In this document: positions 7,260 to 24,023 of the stretch, piece after piece | How positions within the stretch are numbered: the stretch's first letter is position 1 | How the letters are laid out: every line of letters begins with the position of its first letter | Notes under the pieces: generated by a model | The model's database searches: none | Seen by the model: only the letters and a program-made list of their open reading frames with translations | Told to the model about the DNA's origin: nothing | Position numbers and translations under genes: made by a program | Origin: Lachnospiraceae bacterium | GTDB lineage: Bacteria > Bacillota > Clostridia > Lachnospirales > Lachnospiraceae | Assembly: GCA_015057325.1 (NCBI GenBank) | Contig: SVEQ01000001.1 | Coordinates: 62,001 to 126,000 of the forward strand | DNA length: 64,000 nucleotides | Direction of reading: 5' to 3'

Positions 7260-7350
7260 TCTAAAGAGAGATAAGTATATGTCATAGTCTTGACACTTCT
7301 GTTCTAAAGCTGAATTGGGCAGATATATAAGATAGATATTATTTTTGTCT

Positions 7351-7398
7351 GATGTAAAAAACATCCATATAAAAAAATTGTTAATTATATGAGGATGT
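7351..7398 (+). promoter_or_regulatory. Alternative hairpins in the leader of the DUF2779 gene
   Basis: ACATC (7361-7365) can pair either with upstream GATGT (7351-7355, loop of A residues) or, as ACATCC plus ATATAA, with TTATAT and GGATGT downstream (7385-7398). The two hairpins are mutually exclusive. A TTGACA box lies at 7290-7295 but the expected -10 position is weak. Confidence 0.3.
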
Positions 7399-7459
7399 GT
7401 TAAAATTATTCTTGATTTGTATTAATTTTGTCGTAATAATATATGCTTCGGAGGTTTTA

Positions 7460-8938
7460 ATGAGCGATTATCATTTGACAAAAACAAAATATTGCAACGG
7501 GGTACAATGCCCCAAGATGCTCTGGCTGATGAGAAATAAGCCTGAAGAAGCACTTGTTTCCATGAATGGAGCGGTAATTGAAAACGGAAACATAGTTGGG
7601 CGTGCTGCAAGAAACTATTTTGGAGAATACACGCTTATACAGTATTCTGAAGATAAAGCACAGATGGTATCTGATACGAAAAATGCTATGGAATCCGGAG
7701 CGGAGAATATTGCTGAAGCCGGATTTATATATGACGGACTTTACTGTGCAGTGGATATCCTTCATCGTAATGGGGCTGGATGGGATATCGTTGAGGTAAA
7801 AAGCTCAACCGGCGTAAAGCCTATTCATGTTGATGACATGTCTTTTCAGTATTATGTTCTTAAAAGTGCAGGAATCAATGTAAAAAATGTATATATATTA
7901 TATATCAATAATCAATACGTCCGGCACGGCGAGCTGGATCTTAAACAGCTGTTCCACATTGAAAACTATACAGAGAAAGCTATTGAAAAACAGGCGGAGA
8001 TACAAGAGAAGATCGCAGAGCTTAAAGAGTATATTAAGAAGTCCGAGGAACCTGAGATGAAGATCGGTACTTTCTGCGAAGAACCGTATGAGTGTGCTTT
8101 TATGAAATATTGCAGGGGCGACCTTCCAAGTCCTTCCGTATTTGATATTTTGCTAATCGGTAAAAAGGCCTATGAACTGTATCATCAGGGAATTATAAGC
8201 TTTGAAGATATTGAAAAAAATAAAATAAAGCTGACAGATAATCAGATGCATCAGGTGACGAGTTATCTGGAAGATAAAGATGTCTTTGATAAAAAAGTAA
8301 CTTGTGAATTCCTGGATACATTAACATATCCGATTTATCATTTGGATTTTGAGACATTCCAGCAGGCTGTTCCGGAATATGAAGGCGGAAAACCTTATGC
8401 TCAGATACCATTTCAGTATTCACTTCATATAGAATATGAAAACGGGCATCTGGATCATAAAGAGTTTCTTGCAAAAGAAGGAACAGATCCAAGAAGAGCG
8501 ATAGCTGAAAGTCTTTGCAGGGATATTCCGATGGGAGTTTGTTCGCTGGCATTTAACATGGGATTTGAAAAAGGAAGGATAAAGGATTTGGCTGAACAAT
8601 TTCCGGATCTAGAGGATCACCTTATGGACATACATAAAAATATGCACGATCTCATGATTCCATTCCAAAAGAAAGCATATTACGTCAATGATATGGAAGG
8701 CTCATATTCAATTAAGCATGTGCTTCCTGCTTTGTATCCAAATGATCCTGAACTTGACTATCACAGTCTCGATCAGGTTCATAACGGCGGCGAAGCATCT
8801 GAAGCGTTCCTTACAATGGCGCAGAAGAGTCCGGAAGAGATTGCAGAGCTTAGAGAAAATCTCCTCAAGTACTGTGGCCTTGATACTTATGCGATGGTGA
8901 AGGTGTTGAGGAAGTTGAGGGAAGTGGTAAAACAATAG
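7460..8938 (+). CDS. DUF2779 domain protein, RecB/Cas4-like nuclease plus DEDD-like domain
   Basis: The 492-aa protein starts at ATG 7460 after TCGGAGG; the frame is open 63 bases earlier without a ribosome site. The N-terminal half begins with LTKTKYCNGVQCPKMLWL (first cysteines) and contains AVDILHR ... WDIVEVKSSTGVK, the D...E-x-K core of a Cas4/RecB-type PD-(D/E)XK nuclease, then CAFMKYC with further cysteines that could complete an iron-sulfur cluster. The C-terminal DUF2779 half starts IYHLDFETFQ, an exonuclease-like D-x-E motif, and ends near LLKYCGLDTYAMVKVL, a typical last D of a DEDD fold. Such proteins are predicted DNA nucleases and often lie in defence islands, as here just before mcrBC. 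Exact role unknown. Confidence 0.8.
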   Translation: MSDYHLTKTKYCNGVQCPKMLWLMRNKPEEALVSMNGAVIENGNIVGRAARNYFGEYTLIQYSEDKAQMVSDTKNAMESGAENIAEAGFIYDGLYCAVDILHRNGAGWDIVEVKSSTGVKPIHVDDMSFQYYVLKSAGINVKNVYILYINNQYVRHGELDLKQLFHIENYTEKAIEKQAEIQEKIAELKEYIKKSEEPEMKIGTFCEEPYECAFMKYCRGDLPSPSVFDILLIGKKAYELYHQGIISFEDIEKNKIKLTDNQMHQVTSYLEDKDVFDKKVTCEFLDTLTYPIYHLDFETFQQAVPEYEGGKPYAQIPFQYSLHIEYENGHLDHKEFLAKEGTDPRRAIAESLCRDIPMGVCSLAFNMGFEKGRIKDLAEQFPDLEDHLMDIHKNMHDLMIPFQKKAYYVNDMEGSYSIKHVLPALYPNDPELDYHSLDQVHNGGEASEAFLTMAQKSPEEIAELRENLLKYCGLDTYAMVKVLRKLREVVKQ

Positions 8939-8967
8939 AAATAAAACTCTGATAAATATGGAGGGGT

Positions 8968-9162
8968 TATGAGTGTGCATTTATGAAATATTGCAGGGGA
9001 GATATTCCGAGTCCTTCGGCATTTGATATTTCCCGGATTGGAAAAAAGGCTTATGAACTGTATCATTTGGATTTTGAAACTTTCCGGCAGGTGGTTCCCG
9101 AGTTTGAAGGTGCAAGACCATTTGTTTCGTATATAATAAACCAAACCAAAAGAGATTTATAA
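8968..9162 (+). pseudogene. Fragment of a second DUF2779 gene with internal deletion
   Basis: The frame reads YECAFMKYCRGDIPSPSAFD, IGKKAYELYH and then LDFETFRQVVPEFEGARPF, all nearly identical in order to segments of the preceding gene. Between KKAYELYH and LDFETF the intact gene has about 54 extra residues; here they are deleted. There is no start region and the frame ends at TAA 9160-9162, 16 bases before mcrB. It is a decayed tandem paralogue, probably left by duplication followed by deletion. Confidence 0.85.
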
Positions 9163-9178
9163 GGAGTGAGGAAAACTT

Positions 9179-11434
9179 ATGATTAAATCAATCGATACAC
9201 TTAAAGAAATATGGAAAAAATATGAAAAAAAGCCAGGTGAGGAAGATAGAAAAGATCCACACATTGAAAAATGGGAGGAATGGAAAAAGGCGATTGAGGG
9301 TTTTTCGAGAGACGGTGATTCGAAAAAGGCGATTGAGGATTTTTCGGGAGACGGTGATTCGAAAAAGGCGATTGAGGATTTTTCGGGAGACGGTGATTCG
9401 AAAAAGGCGATTGAGGATTTTTCGGGAGACGGTGATTCGAAAAAGGCGATTCTGGATCCTTCGGGAGACAATGCTTCGAAAAAGATAGATATTAATAATT
9501 ACCAGTTAAACAAGGTTTATATGCCTAAAAAGATTAAAAAATGGGAGAGTAAGGAGAAAAAGAATAAATATGAAGAGGCCTATAAGTCTTTTTATGATGA
9601 AAATTTAAAAAAATGCAACGATGATTTTTATAATTCATTTGGGTATTTTTTGTTATTAGGAAGTAGTGGATATTTTGGTGCGGGTCAGAATAAAGTATTG
9701 GGATTACTGAAAAATAGAGAGGTTATTTTTATAAATGAAAGTTGTGAATTTGAATTAAATGAAGTATATCAAAAACGCGAAAGAGGATTTAATTATGATG
9801 ATATAAAAGATGAAGACGCAATAGACGAATTGGATAAGGACATAAAAGCGATTAAAGAAATTATCGATATCAAAGACGTTAATAAATTAGCGGAAATAGA
9901 GAAAAATAAAGGAAGGTTTCTAAATTACCCGAGACACAAATTAATGGTTTTAGCTTCATTATCAGAAGATGCGCTAGCTGATTTAAAGTTTAAATTGCCA
10001 TTCAAAGCTGAAATCGGTAAACAGATGTTTGAAGATTTCTGTGATTTGGCAGAAAAAGAAGGAGATGATTATAAGAATATTCTTATTGATTTAGTTTCCG
10101 AGAAATCCGGAGAGTCAATAAAGTTTGAGGATGCAAGAAAAAAAGGTGCTAATAATTGGGTCATAAAAGGTGCATTTGTTATCAATTTTCTGTATAAATG
10201 CTTAGAACTTGATAGGAGCGTATCATATGATACAACATCAAGATTGTCAGAAATGTTGTGGAAGTTGGACAAAGCAAAAGAATTTGAAGATATTGACAAA
10301 TATTGGCAAATTGTTTACACAGGAGCCCCGGGAACAGGTAAAACGTATGGGATTAAAGATTATGTAAAGATTAACTGTTTAGAGAATCCGCTGGAAGATG
10401 ATGTTATTAAAAAAATACTTGAGGATAAAATGCTGAGGGAAAAAGGTAACGAAACAGTTACTGATGAAATGATAAATGATTGGAAGAAGAAACAGCAAAA
10501 ATTCGTTCAATTTCATTCATCATATGATTATTCTGATTTTGTTGAAGGCATACGTCCGATTCAACTGGAGAATAAAAAAGAACCCACTTTTGTTAGAATG
10601 GATGGCGTGTTTAAGGAATTCTGCAGAAATGTAGTTGAATATAATAAAAAATACAAAGAAGTACATAATAACAAAGAAGTCTCTTCGGTTATAGAAGATT
10701 ATAAAAATGGTAAAACTAATGAAGGTTGTCCGGTGCCACACTTTTATTTTATTATAGACGAAATAAACAGAGCTGATATAGGAAAAGTGTTTGGAGAGTT
10801 GATGTTCGGACTTGAGGAAACATACAGGGGTGAAGAGAATGCTTTTGATACTCAATATATGAATATGCCGACATATGTTATCAGAAATAAAAAAGCACAT
10901 GAATTATCAGACGATGAAGATGTCTTTAAAAAAGGATTTTATGTTCCTGAAAATGTTCATATAATCGGAAGCATGAACAATATTGACCGAAGTGTGGAAA
11001 CATTTGATTTTGCTCTAAGAAGAAGATTTCAATGGAAAGATATTAAGGCAAATAATATGCTAGAACCGGTTTTAAGCGCTGTTTTGAGGGATAAACCGGA
11101 AGCGATGGAGAATTTAAATGACATTATTACAAAAATTAAAAATATGAATAATGTGATAGATAAAGGTGTAGGAAGTGAATGCGGCCTTGATGAAAACTAT
11201 CATATTGGTCCGGCATATTTTAGAAATTATGATGGTTCAGAGGTATCTTTATCTATTATTTGGGATGAGAAAATTGAGCCAATTTTGCGAGAATATGTAA
11301 GAGGAAGAGCAAAAGAGAAGGTGGATGAATTTATCAGAGCATGTAAAGAAGCTCTGGGAGTTAATGAATCTGAAAAAACCGGTGATGAAACAGAGGACCA
11401 CGAAGATAACGAGGTGGCTGTTAATGGCGAATAA
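9179..11434 (+). CDS. mcrB: McrB-type AAA+ GTPase of a type IV restriction system
   Basis: The 751-aa protein has Walker A GAPGTGKT near residue 382, Walker B FYFIIDEINRADIGKVFGEL, and the McrB GTPase signature MNNIDRS (canonical MNTADRS), followed by DFALRRRFQW with the arginine finger region. McrB forms a GTP-driven ring that moves on DNA and activates the McrC nuclease to cut modified DNA. The N-terminal ~370 residues replace the usual 5-methylcytosine-binding domain by a different module that may set target specificity; residues 35-99 are five 13-aa tandem repeats. Residues 150-300 contain helices with RGFNYDDIKDED and PRHKLMVLA. The gene overlaps mcrC by 11 bases, so both are translated from one mRNA. 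Confidence 0.88.
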   Translation: MIKSIDTLKEIWKKYEKKPGEEDRKDPHIEKWEEWKKAIEGFSRDGDSKKAIEDFSGDGDSKKAIEDFSGDGDSKKAIEDFSGDGDSKKAILDPSGDNASKKIDINNYQLNKVYMPKKIKKWESKEKKNKYEEAYKSFYDENLKKCNDDFYNSFGYFLLLGSSGYFGAGQNKVLGLLKNREVIFINESCEFELNEVYQKRERGFNYDDIKDEDAIDELDKDIKAIKEIIDIKDVNKLAEIEKNKGRFLNYPRHKLMVLASLSEDALADLKFKLPFKAEIGKQMFEDFCDLAEKEGDDYKNILIDLVSEKSGESIKFEDARKKGANNWVIKGAFVINFLYKCLELDRSVSYDTTSRLSEMLWKLDKAKEFEDIDKYWQIVYTGAPGTGKTYGIKDYVKINCLENPLEDDVIKKILEDKMLREKGNETVTDEMINDWKKKQQKFVQFHSSYDYSDFVEGIRPIQLENKKEPTFVRMDGVFKEFCRNVVEYNKKYKEVHNNKEVSSVIEDYKNGKTNEGCPVPHFYFIIDEINRADIGKVFGELMFGLEETYRGEENAFDTQYMNMPTYVIRNKKAHELSDDEDVFKKGFYVPENVHIIGSMNNIDRSVETFDFALRRRFQWKDIKANNMLEPVLSAVLRDKPEAMENLNDIITKIKNMNNVIDKGVGSECGLDENYHIGPAYFRNYDGSEVSLSIIWDEKIEPILREYVRGRAKEKVDEFIRACKEALGVNESEKTGDETEDHEDNEVAVNGE
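9281..9475 (+). repeat. Five tandem 39-bp units inside mcrB
   Basis: Units encode 13 residues each: WKKAIEGFSRDGD, then three identical SKKAIEDFSGDGD, then SKKAILDPSGDNA. The three central units are identical at the DNA level, and the outer units differ slightly, as expected for expansion by slippage or recombination. Unit length is a multiple of three, so copy changes would alter protein length but not the frame. Confidence 0.95.
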
Positions 11435-13133
11435 TACAATCAATCAAGTGGAATATACTGTTTACTCATATGGCGATATTACTTCTGAAAACATAGAATA
11501 TCATGGAAATACAGAAGATATATTTAAACAGGGTAATATGCACCTTTCAAACTGTCTAAAGAATTGTGATGAGGAAAGCAGAGTTAAAATTAAAAATGCG
11601 CTGTATGAGAATCTTTTGACAAGTGTTTTGGACAGAATCAACAAGAGCATTGAAGAAAATAATGGAATAGTTGTAGGATGCAGTGAAATAACCAGAGAGA
11701 AGAATAAGGGTAAGATTTATGTTGCGGATCCAAAATCTAATAATAGAATTTCAGGAGTGATAGGGGCAGTATCTTGTGAAATAGATAAACTTGATCTTTA
11801 TTATGATAATAAAAAATATCAACTGGTAAAAAGGACCCAAGTTAAAGTGAAATTTGAATCACATATAGATAAAAGTAGGAATGGAGAAAAATTATATTTT
11901 GCAGCCAATCTTCTTACATATGGTGAATTCAGTTCATTGAGCAACAACAATGTAGATTGTGATGATAATAATCTGTTTGATTTTTTACTTGTCGATCTTT
12001 TGACAAGAAAACTGGATGTGGCAAGGTATAAAGGGATTTACAGGACGTATCGACAATTTGAGAGTAATGATGAGAATCTTAAAGGAAGCATCGATGTATC
12101 CAGACATATTAAATTGAATGCCGGATTAAAAAATGGAAGAATTGCATCGAAATATCGGGAAAATACTGCAAATAACTTTTTGAATATTTTGCTGATAAAA
12201 ACATACCAATATATAAAACGAAAGTATCCGGAACTGATAGAAAAGAAAATTGATAATAATTTGGAACTGAGAGGGCTGATTAATCAACTTCAAAATGAAG
12301 TTGAGGGTGGCAATATCTCAACATCGATGATCATATCCCGAAATATGAAGCCCATTTCTCATCCATATTATCATGAATATGAAGATGTTCGTAAGATATG
12401 TCTGAAAATTCTTCGGTCGGAAGGCGTGTCTATTTTTGAAACAAGCAATGACAATGTAAGTGGTTTTGTATACTATTTGCCGGATTTGTGGGAGAACTGT
12501 TGCCTAGATATATTAAAACGAACAATCAAAAATCAATGCGATGGTATTTATTCTATCACAGATCAGGAAACAATTCCTTTTATATCCAAGCGTGACGGTA
12601 AATATGGTTTTTGTGAGTCAAGACCGGATTTTGTTATAAGAGAGTATGATTCGGAGAAGGTGTGCATGATCTTGGATGCAAAAGCAAAACCGAAATGGTA
12701 TAAAGTATTGATGGTTGATTATGTTAAGTATTTTCAGGATGATTACGGTGAAGATATCAATAAATGCATTCGAGATATGGTCGTGTTTGGTGCAAAAAAA
12801 ACAGGAGTTGTATTCCCTGTTGAAAGGAAAGAAATATCAAAATTGCTAGAACTGATTTTTCCGGTTGAAGATAAAAACGATGATAGTTTTAATTATGATG
12901 AATATATAGAATCGCTCAAAGGTGCATATAAAGAAGCATATAGTAATGAAAATATTGTATATAAGCGAAAAATATCAGACCAAAATGATTATGAGTTTTG
13001 TATAATACCGTTTATTATTCCTGAATCAGAAAACCATAGTAATTTTAGTTCCTGGAAAAGAGAATATAATATTTCAAAAGAAATGCTATGCGAAACAATT
13101 GGAGAAAAGAATTTAAAACTATTTACACGGTAA
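11424..13133 (+). CDS. mcrC: McrC nuclease subunit of the McrBC system
   Basis: The 569-aa protein has the McrC plan: N-terminal beta-rich part, a central helical region (YRQFESNDENLKGSIDVSRH, typical of McrC), and a C-terminal PD-(D/E)XK domain with PDLWENCCLDILKR, SRPDFVI and MILDAKAKPKWYK giving the D...D-A-K catalytic core. It cleaves DNA when activated by McrB. ATG 11424 follows GAGGTGG; the frame is open earlier inside mcrB. The stop codon falls exactly at a recombination scar with homology to the next regulator gene, and the last few residues (KLFTR) may therefore not be the ancestral end. Confidence 0.87.
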   Translation: MANNTINQVEYTVYSYGDITSENIEYHGNTEDIFKQGNMHLSNCLKNCDEESRVKIKNALYENLLTSVLDRINKSIEENNGIVVGCSEITREKNKGKIYVADPKSNNRISGVIGAVSCEIDKLDLYYDNKKYQLVKRTQVKVKFESHIDKSRNGEKLYFAANLLTYGEFSSLSNNNVDCDDNNLFDFLLVDLLTRKLDVARYKGIYRTYRQFESNDENLKGSIDVSRHIKLNAGLKNGRIASKYRENTANNFLNILLIKTYQYIKRKYPELIEKKIDNNLELRGLINQLQNEVEGGNISTSMIISRNMKPISHPYYHEYEDVRKICLKILRSEGVSIFETSNDNVSGFVYYLPDLWENCCLDILKRTIKNQCDGIYSITDQETIPFISKRDGKYGFCESRPDFVIREYDSEKVCMILDAKAKPKWYKVLMVDYVKYFQDDYGEDINKCIRDMVVFGAKKTGVVFPVERKEISKLLELIFPVEDKNDDSFNYDEYIESLKGAYKEAYSNENIVYKRKISDQNDYEFCIIPFIIPESENHSNFSSWKREYNISKEMLCETIGEKNLKLFTR

Positions 13134-13227
13134 TTTGAGCAAATCACTTACTTCCGATGTCGTGAAGTTAATACAGGAAGAAGGCCTTCGTATGCTGAGA
13201 CATACTGAAAAGGAGAGAAATCAATAA
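13126..13227 (+). pseudogene. Fragment of an XRE-like regulator fused to the 3' end of mcrC
   Basis: Starting at the last codons of mcrC, another frame reads HGNLSKSLTSDVV ... LRHTEKERNQ and a stop at 13227. The first ~40 bases match the intact regulator gene at about 13535-13578 (HGNLSKPLTAEVI) at most positions. It is the broken end of a paralogous regulator, joined to mcrC by recombination. Confidence 0.65.
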
Positions 13228-13244
13228 GCATAGATTCAGACAGA

Positions 13245-13276
13245 AACACAATGAAATTTTGAAAACGCAAAATTTT
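13245..13276 (+). promoter_or_regulatory. Conserved 32-bp element, copy 1
   Basis: This AT-rich stretch matches 14351-14382 at 28 of 32 positions, with the shared core AAACGCAAAAT. In this copy AAATTTTG and CAAAATTT form an inverted repeat around AAAACG. It lies just upstream of a TTGACA box serving the regulator gene, so it may be an operator or an upstream promoter element. Confidence 0.55.
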
Positions 13277-13278
13277 AA

Positions 13279-13308
13279 TTGACAATACAAAATCGTGTAT
13301 GGTATTTT
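13279..13308 (+). promoter_or_regulatory. Promoter of the XRE-like regulator gene
   Basis: TTGACA at 13279-13284 and TATTTT at 13303-13308 are separated by 18 bases. It lies directly after the conserved 32-bp element and before an attenuator-like hairpin. Confidence 0.5.
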
Positions 13309-13309
13309 T

Positions 13310-13343
13310 AGGTTGAACAGATTGGTTTCTGTTCAACCTTTTT
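13310..13343 (+). terminator. Strong hairpin with T run between promoter and regulator start
   Basis: AGGTTGAACAG pairs perfectly with CTGTTCAACCT, followed by TTTTT. It may end mcrBC transcription or, since a promoter lies just upstream, act as an attenuator of the regulator gene whose RBS is 16 bases downstream. Confidence 0.7.
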
Positions 13344-13372
13344 ACTTCAGACAATATTCGGAGGCATTATTT

Positions 13373-14221
13373 GTGGATATGGAAGAACAATTCAAACAAA
13401 AATATATTCATGTCAGAGTTCCGGACAAGGCAATGCTGGCTATGTATATAAAGGAAGCAAAGGGAACGGATAGGAATATGGCCGAGTTCGCCAAGTGCTG
13501 CGGGACTCTGACGCCATCCTCTTTTTCAAGGATTATACACGGTAACTTGAGCAAACCGCTTACTGCCGAGGTGATACAGTCCATCGTAAGGAATGCGGAT
13601 CCCAAGGCTAAGCTTTCCTATATGGATATGATGTATGCCAATGGGATGGTTCCTGAAAATGATAACGGAGAATCCGAAACCGGTCGCGAAAGACGAATCT
13701 TTTCTGCTAAAACGAAAGATACAGAGATAAAGGTCAGAAATATCATTGTCGGAAGGCTGTTCGAACTGGGGAATATGCTGCTTGCAATGGAGAAATTCGG
13801 TCAGGGTGAACTTAATATCACCGAGAAAGTTTCGGGACTTAAGCAGGTAAAGAAAAGCAACAGAGGGTTTGGGATACCGGGAAGATTTACATTACGGATT
13901 CAGGGAATAGATCCCTTCTATTATAATTATGAGATTTTTGTTCCTGATCCGGAATGTGGTAAAGCGATTAATACATCAAGATTTCGTGATTATGAAGGGT
14001 TTTTCCTGCGTGATATGTGGGAATCGGACACACTGGAAGATATAATGCAGAATTTTGTATTTACTGAAAGGGAATATTATGATGCTTTTTGGGAGTTTCT
14101 TAAAGGAGTAAAGGTAAACAACTATATGGCTGCAATTTTAGTGGATACAGAACAGGAGAGTGTCGTCGAATATATGCAGATACCGAGAGTTGATGGAAAG
14201 AAGATAAAGAGCATCTATTAA
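13373..14221 (+). CDS. XRE-like DNA-binding regulator (282 aa)
   Basis: The start is GTG 13373, 8 bases after CGGAGG. Residues ~35-90 form a helix-turn-helix of the kind seen in Lachnospiraceae regulators: NMAEFAKCCGTLTPSSFSRI followed by IHGNLSKPLTAEVIQSI and an N-A-D-P-x-x-x-L-S/T motif with MMYANGM. The C-terminal ~190 residues have no domain I can name; they contain RFTLRIQGIDPFYYNYEIFV and end in an acidic/aromatic helix-rich part. It probably binds DNA and controls the neighbouring operon, since a 32-bp element occurs both upstream of this gene and upstream of the next ones. A strong terminator follows, so it is transcribed separately from the AAA+ operon. Confidence 0.75.
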   Translation: MDMEEQFKQKYIHVRVPDKAMLAMYIKEAKGTDRNMAEFAKCCGTLTPSSFSRIIHGNLSKPLTAEVIQSIVRNADPKAKLSYMDMMYANGMVPENDNGESETGRERRIFSAKTKDTEIKVRNIIVGRLFELGNMLLAMEKFGQGELNITEKVSGLKQVKKSNRGFGIPGRFTLRIQGIDPFYYNYEIFVPDPECGKAINTSRFRDYEGFFLRDMWESDTLEDIMQNFVFTEREYYDAFWEFLKGVKVNNYMAAILVDTEQESVVEYMQIPRVDGKKIKSIY

Positions 14222-14253
14222 TACTGCAAAAACAAAATTATATTAAACAAAAA

Positions 14254-14297
14254 CAAAAGTGTAAATCAGTGAATATTTCACAGATTTACACTTTTTT
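14254..14297 (+). terminator. Rho-independent terminator after the regulator gene
   Basis: AAAGTGTAAATC pairs perfectly with GATTTACACTTT, followed by a T run. It separates the regulator from the small-ORF/AAA+ operon. Confidence 0.9.
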
Positions 14298-14350
14298 GAT
14301 TTTTATTCGAGAAACTGTTTACAAAGCATATCTCAATATGTTATTGTACC

Positions 14351-14382
14351 AACACAATAAAATTTCGTAAACGCAAAATATT
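14351..14382 (+). promoter_or_regulatory. Conserved 32-bp element, copy 2
   Basis: Matches the element at 13245-13276 at 28 of 32 positions. Here it ends 24 bases before the ATG of the first small ORF. Upstream, TTTACA near 14318 and TATTGT near 14342 could be a promoter, placing the element at or after the transcription start, a position suited to repression. Confidence 0.55.
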
Positions 14383-14405
14383 TTTTTAATGAGGAGGACA
14401 AATTT

Positions 14406-14570
14406 ATGAATATTGAAAAGATGATGCTGATATCGGCAATAGTTGCTTGTCATTTAGCACAAACATTTTCCAGCATTGGGATTTCCGTGATTTCAAGCAG
14501 GAAGCCTGAGGAATTTTTCCTGGGAATCAAAGAACGGGAAGAAGAACAATTAAAAAATGTATCTGACTGA
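14406..14570 (+). CDS. Small hydrophobic protein (54 aa), first ORF of the AAA+/PolC-like operon
   Basis: A GAGGAGG site 8 bases upstream supports ATG 14406. The product begins MNIEKMMLISAIVACHLAQT, a likely membrane helix, then a charged tail (GIKEREEEQLKNVSD) before TGA. The reading frame remains open after this TGA for another 60 codons encoding more hydrophobic sequence, so this may be the first half of a membrane protein of about 115 aa split by a stop codon. No family recognised. Confidence 0.6.
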   Translation: MNIEKMMLISAIVACHLAQTFSSIGISVISSRKPEEFFLGIKEREEEQLKNVSD

Positions 14571-14588
14571 AATAATAAGCTCGGGTTT

Positions 14589-14753
14589 ATGTGGCTTGAT
14601 AACAGCTTTATTATTATTGCTTCGTGGGTTATTGCAGTTATGTATAGAGAAAGCTTAAACATTTTTATCAATGTTCTTTGCGGTTTTTTCACTGCATTTG
14701 TTCATACATGTGTGAGATACAGGAAAATAAAACGAGCATTATTTATTAACTAG
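14589..14753 (+). CDS. Small membrane protein (54 aa), in frame with the preceding ORF
   Basis: ATG 14589 lacks a good ribosome site. The product (MWLDNSFIIIASWVIAVMYR ... INVLCGFFTAFVHT) has two likely membrane helices and a basic end (RYRKIKRALFIN). It is in the same frame as the 14406 ORF, separated only by TGA 14568-14570 and six sense codons. Translation may depend on coupling or read-through. A competing ORF in another frame (ATG near 14554, MYLTEIISSGLCGLITALLL) is also hydrophobic, so which is used is unsettled. The AAA+ gene follows after 33 bases. Confidence 0.45.
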   Translation: MWLDNSFIIIASWVIAVMYRESLNIFINVLCGFFTAFVHTCVRYRKIKRALFIN

Positions 14754-14786
14754 AGACATTTAATTTAAGAAGAGAGGGACACGATT

Positions 14787-17669
14787 ATGAGATATTATGC
14801 AATGACACTTAAAACAAATAACGAGCTGATTGATAAAACTCAAAAAGTAAGACTTAAGGATTATGATTTTGATAGTGCTATAGCCGCAATGAATAATTAT
14901 GTATTTCATTGTATCCGAAATGATGTTAACTTCTTTGCGTATCGAGAGGAAAATAATACGGTGTTATCTGTTTTTTCCTACAATGAACAGGTGATTTCTT
15001 ATGACACAGCAATTTCTGAGCTTTCAGAGAATTTAAATAACTGCTTTGAATATAAAGGAATGTCATCAGATCCGTATGAGATAACTATGAATGAATACAT
15101 AGATGCTTTTATGGAGTGCAAGAGACGTGCATATAATATACATAATACTAATGCAGTATATAATAATGCAAAGCTGGGGTGGCTGTACGATTTTCATTTG
15201 AGAAATGATAATAGATTTCCAGGTCCTTTTGAGTATAAAGAATTAATTATATCAGATGGAAAGGCTGATATACAGGATATTTATGATGAGTCTTTAAAAA
15301 ATGAGCTGATTAATATCAGGGAGCATAGTGTAGAGGAAGACTATAGCGGAGTGATGGCTCATTATTTTGTATCTGCAGGCAGTTATAATGCAGCAGAGGA
15401 TATGATATGTGCTCTTGCTTTAGAATTGTACAATGCAGGACGTATTACCACAAAGCGAATAAACATTGTTTCTGATATGGTTCCCAACCTTTATTCCAGG
15501 GGGAATAATTTTGAAAATATAATAGAGAACAGTTATGGAGGAATGGTTGTTTACTATCTGAAAGAAAAGATGGGCCATGGTTCAAGTGCTTATGAAATGA
15601 ACTGTCAGTATATAAGCAAGCTCTTTAGGCAATATAGGAATAAATGTGTATTTGTCTTTGCTTATGAAAAAAACAACACAGGCTTTGCGTATAAACTGTT
15701 GCCGGGAATAAGAAAAAAAGCTATATGCGTAGAACTTAAGGAAGGTAAAGGAGATAAAAAAGCAGCAGAAAAATACTTAAGAAACATAGTAAAAAAATCT
15801 GAATTATCAGCTGATGCAGCTTCTGTAAAAGAGTTCATGAAACAATTTCCAAAGAAGCAGTATTCCCAAACCGATGTACTCGACGCATTTGACAGGTTCG
15901 ATACTTGGTGTCTTAACCGTAAAATGAAGGGAATGTATAGCTTTAATCAGGAAGAGAATTTCTTATTAGATCGTGACGTTGATGAAATATCTTCTTATGA
16001 CAAGCTTCAAAAGCTGATTGGTCTTAATAAGGTTAAGCAGCAAATTGACTGTGTGATAGCCTCAAATATGGTTGAAATGCAGCGAAGAAAATATGAAGGA
16101 AACGACTATGAGAGCGGAGCTTTGCATATGATATTTGCAGGTAATCCCGGAACTGCAAAAACAACAGTGGCAAGATTGTTTGCCGGTATAGCAAAGGAAA
16201 GAGGAATAATAAAAAGCGGTGTTTTTGTAGAAGTCGGTGGTATGGATCTGAATCTCATGCATCCAATATTTATGCGTGACAAATTTGACGAGGCTAAAGG
16301 CGGCGTACTTTTTGTTGATGAAGCGTATTCCTTGGACTTTCCATCATCAGTAGCTACATTTATCCAGGAGATGGAAAATCACAGGGATGAAGTGATAGTG
16401 ATTATGGCCGGCTATAACAAAAGGATGGAAGCTTTTCTAAAAGGAAACGAAGGTTTAAAGAGCAGGATTCCGCATTGGATAGATTTTCCCGATTATAATG
16501 CAGACGAACTTACGGAAATATTTCTTCTTATGGCAAAGGAACGCAATTTTACCGTTAAAGATGAGGCCCTACAGGAAGCTAAATATATCTTTAAAAAAGC
16601 AGGCTGTATAGAGAATTTCGGAAACGGAAGATACGTAAGGAATCTTATGGATCAGGCAATTCTTAATCAGGCTTCCAGACTCATGTTGAAATATAATGAT
16701 GTCTCTGATATTAAAAAAACCGCTCTCTTCACTTTAATAAAAGAAGATATTACAGCGCTTGACGAGAAACCCAATAGTAGTGATAAATCAACGGCTGAAG
16801 AAAGGAAAGCCGGAGATGCCGCTAAAGAGCTTGATAATATGATTGGATTAAAATCGGTAAAGGACATTATTCACAAGGCTGTTGCCAATGCAAGGCTTAA
16901 TAAGATTTGTATGGATAAGGGTATAAAAAGAGAAAAGACCTCTATGCATATGGTATTTAGCGGTAATCCCGGAACAGCAAAGACTACAGTAGCCAGACTT
17001 TTTGCTGAGATCATGAAGGATGAGAAGATACTTGACCTTGGTAAATTCGTAGAAGTAGGAAGGGCAGATCTTATTGGCTCTCATGTGGGTGAGACGGCAC
17101 CTATGGTAAAGGAAAAGTTTAAGGAAGCTCAGGGCGGTGTCCTTTTCATCGACGAAGCTTATTCCCTTGTTGATTATCACAAGAATAGTTTTGGCGATGA
17201 AGCAATAAACACTATAGTCCAGGAGATGGAAAACCAACGAGATAAAGTAGTTGTGATCTTTGCGGGGTACCCGGAGCCTATGAAGGAGTTCCTTGACAGA
17301 AATCCCGGTATGAAGTCCAGAATCGCATTTCAGGTCAACTTTGATGATTATTCAAAAGAAGAACTCTGTGATATTACAAAGCTGATGCTTTCTAAGAAAA
17401 GCTATACTTTGGCAAAAGAGGCTGTGGCAAAGATTGAGGATATCTTGGATAAGGTGATCGGCAGGGACGACTTTGGAAACGGTCGATTCGTTCGCAAAAT
17501 GATTGAAAAGGCTGAGCTGAATCTTGCTGAAAGATTGTCGTCTTTGACGGAAGAAGAGATAACCGAAGAGATGGTAACTACTTTAGAAGAAGGTGATATT
17601 CCCGGATATGATGAACTTGATCTGTCAGAAAATGATAAAAAGACATTTCAGTTTGGATTTACATGTTAG
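14787..17669 (+). CDS. Tandem CbxX/SpoVK-type AAA+ ATPase with unknown N-terminal region (960 aa)
   Basis: Two complete AAA+ modules of the CbxX/CfqX-SpoVK type are present. Module 1: Walker A GNPGTAKTT near residue 452, Walker B GGVLFVDEAYSL near 505, arginine region GLKSRIPHWIDF. Module 2: Walker A GNPGTAKTT near 726, Walker B GGVLFIDEAYSL, then GMKSRIAFQVNF. Both end in a lid with FGNGR(Y/F)VR. Residues 1-400 match nothing I know; residues ~235-375 may be a third, degenerate AAA+ module without Walker motifs. Relatives remodel proteins (for example CbbX on Rubisco). The ATG at 14787 follows AGAGAGGG. The gene begins an operon with a PolC-like protein and a 231-aa protein, suggesting that the ATPase acts on or with them. 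Confidence 0.85.
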   Translation: MRYYAMTLKTNNELIDKTQKVRLKDYDFDSAIAAMNNYVFHCIRNDVNFFAYREENNTVLSVFSYNEQVISYDTAISELSENLNNCFEYKGMSSDPYEITMNEYIDAFMECKRRAYNIHNTNAVYNNAKLGWLYDFHLRNDNRFPGPFEYKELIISDGKADIQDIYDESLKNELINIREHSVEEDYSGVMAHYFVSAGSYNAAEDMICALALELYNAGRITTKRINIVSDMVPNLYSRGNNFENIIENSYGGMVVYYLKEKMGHGSSAYEMNCQYISKLFRQYRNKCVFVFAYEKNNTGFAYKLLPGIRKKAICVELKEGKGDKKAAEKYLRNIVKKSELSADAASVKEFMKQFPKKQYSQTDVLDAFDRFDTWCLNRKMKGMYSFNQEENFLLDRDVDEISSYDKLQKLIGLNKVKQQIDCVIASNMVEMQRRKYEGNDYESGALHMIFAGNPGTAKTTVARLFAGIAKERGIIKSGVFVEVGGMDLNLMHPIFMRDKFDEAKGGVLFVDEAYSLDFPSSVATFIQEMENHRDEVIVIMAGYNKRMEAFLKGNEGLKSRIPHWIDFPDYNADELTEIFLLMAKERNFTVKDEALQEAKYIFKKAGCIENFGNGRYVRNLMDQAILNQASRLMLKYNDVSDIKKTALFTLIKEDITALDEKPNSSDKSTAEERKAGDAAKELDNMIGLKSVKDIIHKAVANARLNKICMDKGIKREKTSMHMVFSGNPGTAKTTVARLFAEIMKDEKILDLGKFVEVGRADLIGSHVGETAPMVKEKFKEAQGGVLFIDEAYSLVDYHKNSFGDEAINTIVQEMENQRDKVVVIFAGYPEPMKEFLDRNPGMKSRIAFQVNFDDYSKEELCDITKLMLSKKSYTLAKEAVAKIEDILDKVIGRDDFGNGRFVRKMIEKAELNLAERLSSLTEEEITEEMVTTLEEGDIPGYDELDLSENDKKTFQFGFTC

Positions 17670-17708
17670 AAGTTTAGGTAATTAAGTTAGGTGAAAGGAG
17701 AAAATATT

Positions 17709-19865
17709 ATGGGTAAAAACAATAAGGATAACAAGTTTAATAAGGTAGATGATAGAGAGATTACAATGGGCTTTACAGGTGATTTTAATACGGCAAAGAA
17801 ATATATGGAAGAGGGAAAGAAGGTGATTTTTGTAAAGTATGCAAGTACTATTTGCAGAATCTGGCCGGATGTAAACGAGGAGTATCTTGCGGATGATATG
17901 GGATGTAATAATTTCCTTTCAATATTGGTGGCTAAGAACAGAACCGGAATTAGAAGTATTAATAAGATAATTTCTTTTTCTTATCTGAACCATGAGATGG
18001 ATCCGGATGTCTTTACCGGTCCTTCCTGCAGCTGGGAACATATACTTGAGAACAGAGACGGATTGCTGGTGGGAAGGGTTCTCACCTGGGCATATATAAG
18101 AAAGCTGACAATGATGGAGCCGGATGATGATACACTGGATTATCTAATTGAACAAAAGTATGGTAAAGCAGATTTTGTTCAGGTAAGGGGAGAAAGGCTG
18201 ATGTACAATATTCCTGAGCTGGATGATGATGGTGAGCCGATACCGGAAAGCGAGGAGGATGGAATAATGCAGTATAAGACTGTATCCGTCACAGCAAAAG
18301 AATGCAGAGAGATGGAGAGCATGGCAATAAGAATCGTGAAAAGTCTTAAGAAGCTTGGGATTATCCTCATTGCTGATTTTAATACGGCAACAATATCTGA
18401 GGAGGATCTTAAGGATTATGAATTCTATGGGGAGTCTCTGGCCGGTGAGATAGTGACAGATAATATCAGAGTCCTTGCAAGTCAGGTTGAAGACTTTGAT
18501 CCGTTTCCTGAAAACGAGAAGGGGATACATATTCCGAATGCATATGAGGAATTGAAAAATCGCTGCTATTCAAAAATATATGAGTTGTTTGAAGAGGAAC
18601 CCCCGGTGCAGTATTTGAACAGATTGGAAGAGGAATTATCTATGATTAAAGCTTACGATCATGCTTCCTATTATCTCTTAGCATCTCTTGTTGCGGATAA
18701 ATGCAGGGAGCTTCATGTTCAGCATCTTGTAAGAGGATGTGCCGGCGGGTCACTTGTTGCTTACTTGTCAGGGATTACCCATACCAATCCGCTGCCGCCA
18801 CATTATTACTGTCCTTCCTGTGGATATACGGAATTTCTTTCTGACGGTGAGGTTTCTTCAGGATACGATCTGGTTAGCATTTATCAGTCAAAGGTTCATT
18901 GCCCTAAATGTGGAAGAGAGCTTGCAGGTGAAGGTCATGACATACCGTTTGAGGTATTTGCAGGTGCTGACGGAAGTAAGCGACCATATTTTGAGATGGA
19001 TGTTCCGGAGAGTGTAAAGAGTGAAATAGTGGATTATTTTGATGAGATATTCGGGAAGGACAAGGTGTATTACTCTGCAGGTAAGGAGCTTGCCGGTGGG
19101 GACAGCCAGGTTACCATGCCGGTCCGCCGGACTGATGAATTGATCATCGTTCCTGCGGATAACGAGATATATGATTATGCACCGGTTAGATATTACAGCA
19201 GATATTATAGAAATGCAGAGTGGGATAGGGCGGCAACAACTTATGAATGCTGGGAGCTCAAGGAGAGAGGAATGTATTTCCATATCAACAGTAATCCTGT
19301 TCTTGACACATTGCAGGAATTGTGGGTTGAAACTTCCGTGGATCCGGATGCAATTTCTATTGATAAAATAGATTATCATAGCTTTTTTGAAAAAGGTGAA
19401 CACAAGGATATTCCTCTTGGATGCGCGAAAAATATACCTGATGAAATGATAGAGAGTGTGTTTGTTTGTTCGTTCTCCGACGTTGTAAGACTTATGGGTT
19501 ACAGTAGTGTGTGGAAAAACAATGCGGAGACGGAATATCAAAAAAATATAACCGCCTGCGAGAAGACCATAGCTCACAGGGAAGATGTGATGAACACTTT
19601 GATCGGGCATGGCATAGAAAGAAAGGAAGCATATCGTATTATGGAGATAGTGAGAAAAGGTAAAGCTGCAAAGGAGCTTACTTCGAAGGATATCGAATAC
19701 CTCAAAGCCAGAGGCATCTCGGATGATTATATATCATCAATGATGAAGATACGATACCTGTTTCCAAAAGCACATGACACAGAGTATGCAGGACTGCTTC
19801 TGCGTTTGATGTGGTATAAGGTTAATTATCCGAAGGAGTATGAGGAGGTGGTTATTCATGGATAA
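17709..19865 (+). CDS. PolC-like protein lacking polymerase active-site aspartates (718 aa)
   Basis: The protein aligns by eye with Gram-positive DNA polymerase III PolC from the PHP region onward. Recognisable PolC segments are ILVAKNRTGIRSINKIISF (PHP start), GGSLVAYLSGITHTNPLPPH, the zinc ribbon C368-x2-C371 / C398-x2-C401, GHDIPFEVFAG, LIIVPADNEIYDYAPVRY, and near the end AYRIMEIVRKGK and SMMKIRYLFPKAH. The catalytic PDID of PolC reads PYFE here (Y427, E429), and the third aspartate in K-L-D-I-L-G reads Y-F-H-I-N-S (H525). PHP metal-ligand histidines and the N-terminal OB and exonuclease domains are absent. It should not polymerise DNA; it may bind DNA or a clamp. Start ATG 17709 follows AAAGGAG. 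Confidence 0.8.
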   Translation: MGKNNKDNKFNKVDDREITMGFTGDFNTAKKYMEEGKKVIFVKYASTICRIWPDVNEEYLADDMGCNNFLSILVAKNRTGIRSINKIISFSYLNHEMDPDVFTGPSCSWEHILENRDGLLVGRVLTWAYIRKLTMMEPDDDTLDYLIEQKYGKADFVQVRGERLMYNIPELDDDGEPIPESEEDGIMQYKTVSVTAKECREMESMAIRIVKSLKKLGIILIADFNTATISEEDLKDYEFYGESLAGEIVTDNIRVLASQVEDFDPFPENEKGIHIPNAYEELKNRCYSKIYELFEEEPPVQYLNRLEEELSMIKAYDHASYYLLASLVADKCRELHVQHLVRGCAGGSLVAYLSGITHTNPLPPHYYCPSCGYTEFLSDGEVSSGYDLVSIYQSKVHCPKCGRELAGEGHDIPFEVFAGADGSKRPYFEMDVPESVKSEIVDYFDEIFGKDKVYYSAGKELAGGDSQVTMPVRRTDELIIVPADNEIYDYAPVRYYSRYYRNAEWDRAATTYECWELKERGMYFHINSNPVLDTLQELWVETSVDPDAISIDKIDYHSFFEKGEHKDIPLGCAKNIPDEMIESVFVCSFSDVVRLMGYSSVWKNNAETEYQKNITACEKTIAHREDVMNTLIGHGIERKEAYRIMEIVRKGKAAKELTSKDIEYLKARGISDDYISSMMKIRYLFPKAHDTEYAGLLLRLMWYKVNYPKEYEEVVIHG

Positions 19866-20553
19866 TAAAAAATTACCATTTGAGGCAGCATTTTTTTGGG
19901 ATCGATATGAGAAGCTGGCACCTGTAATTGATGAGCTTTTCAGGTCCACTGATTCGGGAAAACTAATCTTTCCTCTCGACTATATCATTGAAGGAGTTGA
20001 AGAACTTGAGCTTGGTCTCCCGTTGGATTGCAGGAGGGAGCAGAAAGACGATGAGGAGGCTGTGGTCAATGATTCCTTTGGAGAGTTAAAGAGAAAACCG
20101 GAGAAAGAATGCGAGAATGATATTTTCGTACTCAAGGCTGATATTAACTGGGAGCTTAAGGATAAGGAGTATATTTCCTCAAAATTCAAGAAGCTGTACG
20201 GAACATTGATCCAACTGGCTTATAAGTATGATACGATCAAGACGGCGGAATTAACGGAAGAAGAGATCTATGTATGGGACACTTATATAAATAGGTATGA
20301 TAATAAGCATAAGTATCTTCTTAATGCAGACGAGATAAGAGCGCGCGTGGGAGGTAAAGCGGCAGCATGGGATCTTGCTTACTTCACTACACGGGTGTGC
20401 ATGATTTTTAACAGCTGCATTAAACATAATGATTTTATGTGTCTTAAACCTTTGCTCAATGCGCCCATTTATTATCTGATATTGGCATTAGTTCTTAATG
20501 CTTACGCTGACAGTGTTCAGATATCAAATGGATACTTTGACAATGGGGAATAA
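19858..20553 (+). CDS. Unknown 231-aa protein, third gene of the AAA+/PolC-like operon
   Basis: ATG 19858 overlaps the end of the PolC-like gene by 8 bases and follows GAGGAGGTGG, so the two are translationally linked. The product is acidic in its first half (residues ~60-95) and helical afterwards, with YISSKFKKLYGTLIQLAYKY, WDTYINRYDNKHKYLL and a hydrophobic C-terminal helix (PIYYLILALVLNAYADSV). No signal peptide; the C-terminal helix is short and may be buried rather than in the membrane. I recognise no family. Tight overlap argues for a role in the same complex as the upstream proteins. Confidence 0.75.
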   Translation: MDNKKLPFEAAFFWDRYEKLAPVIDELFRSTDSGKLIFPLDYIIEGVEELELGLPLDCRREQKDDEEAVVNDSFGELKRKPEKECENDIFVLKADINWELKDKEYISSKFKKLYGTLIQLAYKYDTIKTAELTEEEIYVWDTYINRYDNKHKYLLNADEIRARVGGKAAAWDLAYFTTRVCMIFNSCIKHNDFMCLKPLLNAPIYYLILALVLNAYADSVQISNGYFDNGE

Positions 20554-20634
20554 ATGTGTATCATGTTGCTGTGGAGATTTGTATATTTCTATTGAATTTA
20601 ATAATGAGATTATGTATATTATATATACTATTGA

Positions 20635-20672
20635 AAGCGGTCATTGGGGAAGACCTGATACCGCTTATTTTC
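20635..20672 (+). terminator. Probable terminator after the AAA+/PolC-like operon
   Basis: AAGCGGT (20635-20641) pairs with ACCGCTT (20660-20666), followed by ATTTTCT. The T run is imperfect. The preceding ~80 bases are AT-rich and appear non-coding. Confidence 0.55.
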
Positions 20673-20772
20673 TCATTATGAATCGTGAAATATTATAACA
20701 TTCATTATGACTTGTTCGTATAGATTTAGACAGTTTCGGTTAGTTTGATTTTGAAATGAGAGAGGTGCTTTT

Positions 20773-22782
20773 ATGCAATCTGAACAAAGTATATTCAAAC
20801 TTCATGCCCCCTTTGAACCCACAGGTGACCAGCCTCAGGCGATAGATGAACTGGTCAAGGGCTTTAAGGAAGGCAATCAATTTGAAACTTTGCTGGGTGT
20901 TACCGGTTCCGGTAAGACATTTACGATGGCGAATGTCATCGCAAAGCTTAATAAGCCGACTATAGTAATAGCGCACAATAAAACGCTGGCGGCCCAGTTA
21001 TACAGTGAGTTCAAGGAATTCTTCCCTGAGAATGCAGTGGAGTATTTTGTATCGTACTACGACTACTACCAGCCGGAGGCGTACGTGCCCTCGACTGACA
21101 CTTATATAGAGAAGGACTCTTCGATAAATGATGAGATTGATAAATTAAGACACTCGGCTACGGCTGCCCTTATAGAGCGTCGCGACGTTATAGTTATTTC
21201 GTCGGTGTCCTGCATTTACAATATCGGTTCGCCGGACAACTACGCGGAAATGATGCTCACAATTAGGACGGGCATGACTTACGAGTGGGATGATTTGATT
21301 AGTGACCTGATAGACATTCAGTATGAGAGGAACGAGATGGACTTCAAACGAGGAACATTTCGTGTTCATGGAGACGTACTCGAGATTCTTCCGGTTTCAA
21401 CTTTTGAGGATGCTATAAGAATCGAGTTCTTCGGTGATGAGATTGACAGAATTGTTGAGTTTGACCCACTTACAGGTGAGGTTAAGCGAAGCATCAGCTG
21501 TGCATTTATTTTCCCTGCATCTCACTATGTTGTGCCGCAGGAAAGAATTGAGGCGGCAGCAAAGGAAATTGAGGCAGAGCTTGAAGAAAGAGTTCAGTAT
21601 TTCAAGGAAAATGATAAGCTACTCGAGGCTCAACGTATAAGTGAGCGTACGCATTTTGACATGGAAATGTTGAAGGAAACAGGGTTCTGTTCGGGTATAG
21701 AGAATTATTCGAGAGTGTTGGCAGGTCTTGAGCCGGGCGCGACACCTAATACGTTGCTTGAGTTTTTCAAGGACGATTTTCTTATGATAATAGACGAGTC
21801 GCACATGACGGTTCCGCAGATTCGAGGTATGTATGCGGGTGACCGTTCGAGAAAACAGACGCTTGTTGATTTCGGTTTCAGACTTCCGTCAGCCATGGAT
21901 AACCGTCCACTTAGGTTTGACGAGTTTGAGGACAAATTAGATCAGGTGCTTTTCGTATCTGCGACACCTTCCGACTACGAGAGTGAGCATGAGTTGTTAA
22001 GGACAGAGCAGTTGATTCGTCCGACAGGACTTCTTGATCCGAAGATTGAAGTTAAACCGGTTGCCGGACAGGTGGACGACCTGCTTTCTGAAATTAACAA
22101 AGAGGTCGGTGGCGGACACAAAGTGCTTGTCACAACGCTCACCAAACGTATGGCGGAGGATCTTACCGACTATCTTCGTGAGCATGATGTGAAGGTCAAA
22201 TATCTTCATTCGGATATAGATACTTTGGAACGAATTGAGATAGTACGAGATCTTCGAATGGGCGTGTTTGATGTTCTTGTTGGAATCAACCTTCTTCGAG
22301 AGGGACTTGATATTCCGGAGATAACGCTTGTGGCAATTCTTGATGCCGACAAGGAAGGCTTCCTGCGTTCGGAGACGTCGCTTGTTCAGACGATAGGTCG
22401 TGCGGCGCGTAACAGCGAAGGTCGTGTAATAATGTATGCGGACACAATTACCGGCTCTATGCGTGTGGCAATTGATGAGACGAACCGCCGACGCGAGATT
22501 CAGGATGCATATAACAAGGAGCATGGTATTACTCCGACAACAATTGAGAAATCTATTCGTGACTTGATTACGACAGAAACGGATGATGATATAGATGCGT
22601 TAAATGCAAGGCTTAAGGAGAAAGATGTTGAGTCAATGTCCATGAAAGAACTCAAAGAGGAGATTAAGAAGTACACCAAGAAAATGGAAACTGCCGCAGC
22701 TGAACTTAACTTTGAAATGGCAGCGGAATATCGTGATAGGTTGAAAGAACTCAAGGTGGCACTTAGGGATTATGATGATTAA
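20773..22782 (+). CDS. uvrB: UvrABC excinuclease subunit B
   Basis: The 669-aa product is a full-length UvrB. Features: [11 protein letters not shown]-motif, Walker A GVTGSGKT (residues 42-49), the beta-hairpin [20 protein letters not shown] that inserts between strands, helicase motif II DESH, motif [11 protein letters not shown], and the C-terminal UVR domain ([20 protein letters not shown]) that binds UvrC. UvrB verifies lesions delivered by UvrA and positions UvrC for incision. ATG 20773 follows GAGAGAGGTG. uvrA lies 1.3 kb downstream but not in the same transcript, as a nitroreductase on the other strand intervenes. No clear LexA box is visible upstream. Confidence 0.97.
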
Positions 22783-22806
22783 CGAGGAGTGTGTGAAATA
22801 CAAAAT

Positions 22807-23301
22807 ATGAAAAATCCTGAAATAAAAGATTTTTATATTAACAACAAGAAAAAATTCAAAAAACTTAGCATCGTCTCTGGCATTCTGCTTGCAGTATTTT
22901 TGCTGATGGCAGTTGTGTTTTATGTTCTGAGTTATAATCAGCATCTATCATACAAAGTAGTTCAAGTGAATGTTATCAGTGTTGATATCGCGAATCCTCT
23001 GTCCAAGATTGACAAAGATAAAGTAGTTGTAGAATACAATGGCAAGAATTATGAGGTGGAAAACCTCATGACTAATGAAACACTCAAATATCATACATAC
23101 TTAAACAGTCAAAAACCTGCTGATGCATACTTTGCGAATGGAAGAATCTTTGCAAACGTTGACGGTATCAGAACTACTACTGTGATTGGAATGATTTATT
23201 TTGTCTTTCTCTTTGGAACATTAATCCTGATATTCACCACAGCCATTCTAATTGGTTGCGTTGTAGAAGCAAACAAAAGGGAGAAAGGAATCTACACATA
23301 A
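22807..23301 (+). CDS. Two-helix membrane protein, DUF3592-like layout
   Basis: The 164-aa product has one membrane helix near residues 20-42 (GILLAVFLLMAVVFYVLSY), an extracytoplasmic beta domain of ~80 residues (VVEYNGKNYEVEN, TYLNSQKPADAYF) and a second helix near 128-155 (VIGMIYFVFLFGTLILIFTT). This helix-domain-helix plan resembles DUF3592 proteins, but identity is uncertain. The start is unclear: ATG 22807 lies 17 bases after AGGAG, whereas a GTG at 22789 overlaps that site. It follows uvrB by 24 bases and is probably co-transcribed. Confidence 0.65.
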   Translation: MKNPEIKDFYINNKKKFKKLSIVSGILLAVFLLMAVVFYVLSYNQHLSYKVVQVNVISVDIANPLSKIDKDKVVVEYNGKNYEVENLMTNETLKYHTYLNSQKPADAYFANGRIFANVDGIRTTTVIGMIYFVFLFGTLILIFTTAILIGCVVEANKREKGIYT

Positions 23302-23303
23302 TA

Positions 23304-23345
23304 AAGGTCTCCTTAAAGTATTTATATTTTACCTTAGGAGACCTT
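23304..23345. terminator. Bidirectional terminator between convergent genes
   Basis: AAGGTCTCCT pairs perfectly with AGGAGACCTT. It lies between the end of the membrane protein gene (plus) and the end of the nitroreductase gene (minus) and has A/T runs on both sides, so it can serve both. Confidence 0.75.
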
Positions 23346-23361
23346 AATAATACATAGTTAT

Positions 23362-23904: not shown

Positions 23905-24023
23905 AAGTTGTCCGTCCTTTCGATTATTTGTGCTTATAAGTATAACATAGCAGATGTGAAATTACTAATTTAATTATACTCGTTATTCCCTTCGTCATGG
24001 GTATAATGGAATGTTATTCCAAT

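Follow-up and report, generated by a model that had tools for sequence, protein, structure and literature searches.

The 64,000-nucleotide window analysed here (positions 62,001 to 126,000 of contig SVEQ01000001.1, Lachnospiraceae bacterium, assembly GCA_015057325.1; 24 contigs, genome G000 in our numbering) carries an operon of three genes, which encode an AAA+ protein of 960 amino acids, a protein of 718 amino acids derived from PolC (DNA polymerase III alpha, C family) and a protein of 231 amino acids (Table 1). All three share a strand; the first two are 39 bp apart and the last two overlap by 8 bp. The arrangement given in a preliminary description of this DNA, including coordinates, strand and overlap, was confirmed. 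Upstream of the AAA+ gene follow a gene for a helix-turn-helix-like (HTH-like) protein, McrC, McrB and a DUF2779 protein, and downstream of the operon a UvrB-like gene.

The 718-residue protein is a PolC paralogue that has kept the fold and, unlike PolC, is devoid of the catalytic aspartates, the exonuclease, the front and end of PolC and the clamp motif. Sequence and predicted fold agree on this ancestry, the structural match spanning PolC residues 369-1304 (3f2c numbering). In an alignment with the PolC of the same genome the embedded 3'-5' exonuclease is absent and the three palm aspartates are replaced by Y427, E429 and H525, PDIDLNF and LLKLDILG of the genuine PolC reading PYFEMDV and GMYFHINS; the same replacements on a PolC-like scaffold had been proposed before, and the alignment bears out the replacements and the structure match the scaffold. 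Of the PHP ligands, the first histidine motif was compared, and it is absent as well. The genuine PolC carries its clamp motif, QLSIF, at residue 1460 of 1466.

Two further dead PolC copies, 40% and 30% identical to that of the window, are present in a congener (same genus; genome G024, contig C40, locus L058) and in an uncultured Lachnospiraceae (L056). The catalytic positions of the three read Y-E-H, H-E-Y and D-E-T, with the third aspartate lost and the second changed to glutamate throughout, so that the decay is graded; L056 retains the first aspartate, and its PHP domain is still recognised by Pfam (E 2.7e-8). No QxxLF-type clamp motif was found in any of the three copies, which, with the clamp-motif end of PolC missing, speaks against the clamp sensing suggested earlier. 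Between two of the dead copies dN/dS (ratio of non-synonymous to synonymous substitution rates) is about 0.2, with dS near saturation, and this value together with the two divergent copies supports a scaffold that appears to be maintained. A search with residues 191-448 among 194 relatives yielded G000 (E 1.5e-176) and G024:C40 (E 2.0e-67), all other matches listed being at 1e-39 or weaker, and with an alignment of the three copies G000 alone stood out among 397 family genomes, G024 not being one of them. As searches with PolC sequences match the real PolC in 188 of the 194 and 384 of the 397 genomes (best matches listed) and a dead copy is recognised by outscoring it, dead copies that score lower, also among the second matches present in many genomes, could have escaped notice. 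A second PolC-like match at G105:C9:61622-63790 is an open frame of 1059 residues, present besides one of PolC length.

All three dead copies adjoin a member of the same AAA+ family, either before or behind the AAA+ gene. In L058 a sigma-70 region 4 domain (Pfam E 7e-8) is fused to the N-terminus of the dead PolC. The same domain (blastp 9e-13) is followed by about 120 residues of PolC-derived sequence in the gene before the AAA+ gene of L047, a locus whose AAA+ and HTH-like proteins are 72% and 79% identical to those of the window. The score of this remnant against L058 was reached by none of 500 shuffles; similarity was weaker to the window copy (6 of 500, in another region) and to the viral protein L189 (23 of 500), and no match was seen to the genuine PolC of G000 (134 of 500) or to L056 (433 of 500). 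The remnant suggests a lineage of increasingly eroded PolC partners. The loci L056 (15296-16657) and L058 (5109-6464) also have a GIY-YIG (LEM-3-like) family in common, of which clustering gave no relative in the stretch 7001-24000 of the window.

A phage origin of the dead PolC was considered and rejected. Scanning viral contigs with the dead-PolC alignment gave no relative, and the 30 records obtained by tblastn from a phage collection, of which the 15 listed are 24.6-32.1% identical and unannotated, are perhaps ordinary PolC. The viral contig L189 encodes a shortened PolC-like protein of 683 residues with a similar end and a shortened stretch between the catalytic motifs, which retains D-D-D; in the tree the window copy and L058 pair (100/100), and L056 and L189 sit on very long branches with unsettled placement. 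The L189 gene (L189:2782-4833, IMGVR_UViG_2556921664_000001, 72.8 kb) lies beside two genes whose products, judged by sequence appearance, resemble a VWA protein and an ATPase of the MoxR type.

Of greater weight than the dead PolC is the AAA+ protein, which is of the SpoVK/CbbX type and combines a dead AAA domain with two that are intact. An N-terminal region is followed by the dead domain, in which the AAA fold is recognisable and the Walker motifs are absent, by two intact domains with AAA_lid_6, and by a C-terminal FGF. Walker A and Walker B start at residues 452 and 505 in the first intact domain and at 726 and 783 in the second, the latter with an SRI motif from residue 842, and NCBIfam assigns spore_V_K, CbbX and EccA. 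The gene has a dN/dS of 0.18. Relatives of the N-terminal 400 residues occur at no fewer than 36 loci of the genome collection, a lower bound as the loci were sought by two peptide patterns, and on one viral contig; many of the loci are cut by contig ends. The region was found in 5 of the 194 relatives and in 17 of the 397 family genomes, many of the latter matches belonging to a shorter class of about 680-710 residues. A Selenomonas plasmid homologue has 700 residues and ends in AIGFIEE.

A tripeptide of a hydrophobic residue, Gly and Phe (hGF; [ILVMFYA]GF) is present within the last 20 residues in 42 of 45 non-redundant family members (chance about 1.3%), in 25 of them two residues from the end, as IGF (23), MGF (9), LGF (5), FGF (3), VGF (1) or YGF (1). 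Of the three exceptions, one ends in YGL and two are 5' fragments of genes with a broken frame, the tail being encoded by the corresponding 3' fragments. The sample was drawn from 57 open reading frames of the family, reduced to 51 by dropping six cut C-termini and to 45 by dropping six redundant ones (<90% identity); L154 and L155 (duplicates), L172 and L173 had been left out earlier, and two members, both from L170, were reached through ClpP. Among the AAA_lid_6 proteins of 40 genomes all three that match the N-terminal model carry the tail, and 22 of 24 that do not match it lack the tail; 20 of these 22 are full-length short SpoVK-like proteins (482-533 residues), a class of which no full-length member carries it. 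The IGF loop of ClpX docks to the hydrophobic H sites of ClpP, as described in parts of PMC9035409. By sequence alone, the tail thus qualifies as an IGF/LGF/VGF-type docking tripeptide, in a position unlike that in ClpX.

Some members of the family have ClpP as a neighbour. Of the 37 loci to which the AAA+ sequence led, 4 (L046, L064, L071 and L075, with L064 and L071 near duplicates) have a ClpP gene separated from the AAA+ gene by one gene at most, and none was seen at this distance in the further AAA+ loci L156-L169. The two genes are equally close in L170 and L171, but it was ClpP itself that led to these two loci, so they are not independent. The ClpP of L059, four genes away and beside a 777-residue gene, probably Lon, was left out of the linked set. 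Further ClpPs are encoded in the genomes of L046, L064, L071 and L075, and G000 has two, neither inside the window. The linked ClpPs have Ser-His-Asp triads, except for Ser-His-Asn in L046.

Comparison with the congener G024 revealed an exchange of partners. DNA identity is 82% in the DUF2779 gene, 85.8% in the AAA+ gene (blastn, 14724 to 17700) and 81% in the UvrB-like gene; McrB, McrC and the HTH-like protein are just 35-45% identical. The genes directly behind the AAA+ gene are unrelated, with the dead PolC and the 231-residue protein in the window and a ClpP in G024, and identity runs through GGTGAAAGGAG (Shine-Dalgarno) and stops before the next start codon. A ClpP paralogue can thus stand in for what follows one and the same AAA+ gene, so that the same unfoldase would work with, or beside, either cassette.

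Our preferred explanation, held tentatively and at somewhat less than an even chance, is that the operon pairs a ClpP-docking unfoldase of the SpoVK/CbbX clade with a non-catalytic partner derived from PolC. C-terminal tails would project from the last AAA ring and dock into the hydrophobic pockets of ClpP, which would be the host's own ClpP in the window and the linked one elsewhere. As adaptor or lure, the dead PolC would deliver to the unfoldase proteins associated with DNA or the replisome, whether the host's own or an invader's, which would there be degraded or remodelled. The AAA+ protein would then be an unfoldase with exchangeable partners, and the dead PolC one targeting partner among them. 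The AAA+ protein, earlier thought of as a switch, is recast here as a likely ClpP-docking unfoldase.

Several observations weigh against this explanation. Most AAA+ loci show neither partner, a ClpP gene being found in 7 of 54, one of them housekeeping-like, and a PolC-like gene in 3 of 54. The pairing of PolC and AAA+ proposed in the preliminary description stands in so far as the same AAA+ family is found at three loci; L056 was reached through its AAA+ protein, so that its linkage is by construction and only the window and G024:C40 are unbiased in this respect. L109 and L110, which do not match the N-terminal model and are both cut at the front, end in hGF, and the tail is therefore not exclusive to the family as drawn. 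Confidence in the best explanation was lowered slightly, and that in two rival readings raised slightly, for these last two reasons. In the window and in L042 the tripeptide is FGF, and ClpX bears its IGF in a loop and not at the C-terminus. At the position of the catalytic Asp172, the ClpP paralogue of L046 (12900-13511, the same as L042:12313-12924) carries Asn. Recruitment of replication proteins by the dead PolC is deduced from nothing but its ancestry. Finally, members of the SpoVK/CbbX/EccA clade are regarded as dedicated chaperones and have no peptidase association, as far as described in the relevant parts of Delerue et al. (PMC10659427).

Since these known members serve a narrow range of targets and need no peptidase to do so, a live, if rather unlikely, alternative is that the AAA+ protein works as a dedicated chaperone outside proteolysis, like CbbX or SpoVK, with the dead PolC as client or scaffold and a tail that binds a target other than ClpP. 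The NCBIfam matches are in line with such a function, and the AAA and AAA_lid_6 domains are shared with the clade. On the other hand, the additional dead AAA domain, the tandem AAA domains, the hGF tail and the ClpP neighbours in the family set the AAA+ protein apart from SpoVK, CbbX and EccA, and both the tail, typical of the family and missing from the full-length short SpoVK-like proteins, and the ClpP genes adjacent in several loci argue against this alternative.

Alternatively, the dead PolC could be a dominant-negative replication toxin that is held low by the unfoldase and ClpP and set free when the protease is disturbed, possibly with the HTH-like protein as antitoxin. The model for such a role, which is possible by analogy, is SocB, reportedly a replication toxin controlled by ClpXP. 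A dead polymerase scaffold might still bind DNA, and relatives of the HTH-like gene are found in 11 of the 54 AAA+ loci, including all three with a dead PolC; the other eight are loci with no dead PolC detected by blast, which reduces the weight of this association. Replication is tied to control by an AAA+ protease in both SocAB and RipAB, and in RipAB a replication toxin is under Clp control, according to PMC12795458. There RipA acts on the sliding clamp, unlike the dead PolC, which has no clamp motif, and in the congener it is ClpP itself that replaces the dead PolC. We consider a toxin unlikely.

The preliminary description had instead seen a sensor or decoy for the takeover of the replisome by phages, that is an antiphage system with the AAA+ protein as its switch. 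A defence role of the operon is possible, and the variable island with McrBC and DUF2779 would fit, as would the exchange of parts between congeners, which may be typical of conflict systems. With PADLOC 2.0.0, however, no match was obtained for the 718- and 231-residue proteins, the AAA+ protein gave weak AAA matches (IetA 1.3e-9, TRIP13 2.3e-9), the surveyed neighbours of AAA+ relatives were mixed (108 of 241 neighbour proteins, tandem-AAA loci only), and the clamp motif is lost. An antiphage role would thus be conjecture, and slightly less probable than a toxin.

The same reading also implied that the three genes travel together, which is not supported. Relatives of the 231-residue protein were found in 1 of 194 genomes, that of the window, and neither in viral contigs (six peptide patterns), plasmids or the 193 other genomes, nor, with a limit of E 1, among the proteins of the 53 other AAA+ loci; Pfam gave no match either. 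L047 contains a stretch that resembles it, but 88 of 1000 shuffles scored as high, and the protein was rejected as a conserved third part. PolC-like genes, too, are present at few AAA+ loci. The orphan, the rarity of the dead PolC (standing out in 2 of 194 and 1 of 397 genomes) and the constructed linkage of the third copy would also suit a cargo that replaced ClpP by chance and has no joint function with the AAA+ protein. Three divergent, open copies that accompany one AAA+ family, whichever of the two genes comes first, and the sigma-70 region 4 module common to the partners in L047 and L058 make such a cargo very improbable. That the 718-residue protein is still a polymerase, by means of E429 (kept in all three copies), D431 or other acidic residues, is hardly credible, the first position being Y, H or D and the third H, Y or T, the lysine two before the third aspartate being changed to Y, G and S, and the stretch RTTGQHPGG being absent from the window copy and shrunk to QHP or HPG in the other two.

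Table 1. Genes and sequence features in and around the operon (positions in the window).
Feature	Position	Strand	Basis
DUF2779 protein with Cas4-like nuclease region	7397..8938	+	Pfam DUF2779 E 1.5e-46, Cas_Cas4 E 7.5e-6
McrB-like AAA_5 protein, neighbour outside the core	9179..11434	+	Pfam AAA_5 E 1.7e-7; named McrB from its position before McrC
McrC-like protein, neighbour outside the core	11325..13133	+	Pfam McrBC E 1.5e-23
HTH-like putative regulator	13295..14221	+	HTH from a reading of the sequence
AAA+ protein, 960 residues	14787..17669	+	Pfam AAA and AAA_lid_6; NCBIfam spore_V_K E 1.2e-137
Dead AAA domain, residues 149-392, without Walker A/B	15231..15962	+	
Walker motifs of both intact AAA domains and SRI motif	16140..17324	+	Motif positions
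C-terminal FGF, residues 956-958, counterpart of the IGF-type tail of the family	17652..17660	+	
Junction containing GGTGAAAGGAG	17661..17708	+	blastn/alignment to congener
Dead PolC derivative, 718 residues	17709..19865	+	Sequence and predicted fold
Codons Y427 to E429, first two catalytic Asp positions	18987..18995	+	
Codon H525, third catalytic Asp position	19281..19283	+	
231-residue orphan protein, 8-bp overlap with PolC-like gene	19858..20553	+	No Pfam/PADLOC match
UvrB-like gene at the conserved right-hand border of the island	20773..22782	+	81.2% DNA identity to congener

The DUF2779 gene forms the conserved left border of the variable island (82.4% by blastn to L042), and the gene at its right border is presumably UvrB, a name given from the look of the sequence. 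The HTH-like protein, 45% and 40% identical to its relatives in L042 and L041, had no match in NCBIfam and none above the cut-off in Pfam. An Rfam scan of 9000-24000 gave no match at the gathering score. Close to the start of the McrB-like protein, at 9300-9480, lies an in-frame repeat (about DGDSKKAIEDFSG). DUF2779 genes were seen in 5 of the 54 AAA+ loci, and such genes are found near members of the AAA+ family in the window, L164 (9689-11176), L168 (5203-6684) and L194 (9298-11046); near the Selenomonas homologue, which adjoins a metallophosphoesterase gene, that gene and one more lie between the DUF2779 and AAA+ genes. A protein cluster whose L048 representative is a calcineurin-like phosphoesterase by Pfam comprises 21 proteins in 14 AAA+ loci (L048, L049, L051, L054, L055, L057, L060, L065, L066, L068, L073, L074, L076 and L078). 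The protein encoded behind the AAA+ gene at L073:13318-14517 matches gyrase subunit A weakly (E 3.5e-6, below the cut-off) and has relatives in L066, L068 and L072.

Compared with known systems, the closest parallel for a dead polymerase retained as an accessory protein is ImuB, a catalytically inactive homologue of Y-family polymerases (PMC12926913, in the part consulted), which differs from the 718-residue protein in its family and in its partners, ImuA and DnaE2 instead of a SpoVK-type AAA+ protein. The portions consulted of two surveys of C-family polymerases (PMC12926913, PMC3919608) cover inactive PHP domains and mention no PolC with a dead polymerase site. With ClpX and ClpA the AAA+ protein shares the hydrophobic-Gly-Phe tripeptide and, in some loci of its family, adjacent ClpP genes, and it differs from them in the C-terminal position of the tripeptide, instead of in a loop, and in belonging to another AAA clade. 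In the searches made of an open-access library, no system pairing SpoVK or CbbX with ClpP was found at the level of titles and abstracts.

If the preferred explanation is true, the dead polymerase and the pairing of unfoldase and protease would be new kinds of parts. It is possible, although doubtful at present, that they represent a new class of regulated protease, in which unfoldases of the SpoVK/CbbX clade with IGF-type tails for ClpP work with swappable linked partners, one of them a domesticated, dead replicative polymerase through which proteins of the replisome, or replication proteins of an invader, would be drawn in and degraded. Should the hGF tail dock to ClpP, a partner-swapping AAA+ family would be added to the regulated proteases, and in the dead PolC a replicative polymerase of the C family would have given up catalysis and taken on recruitment.

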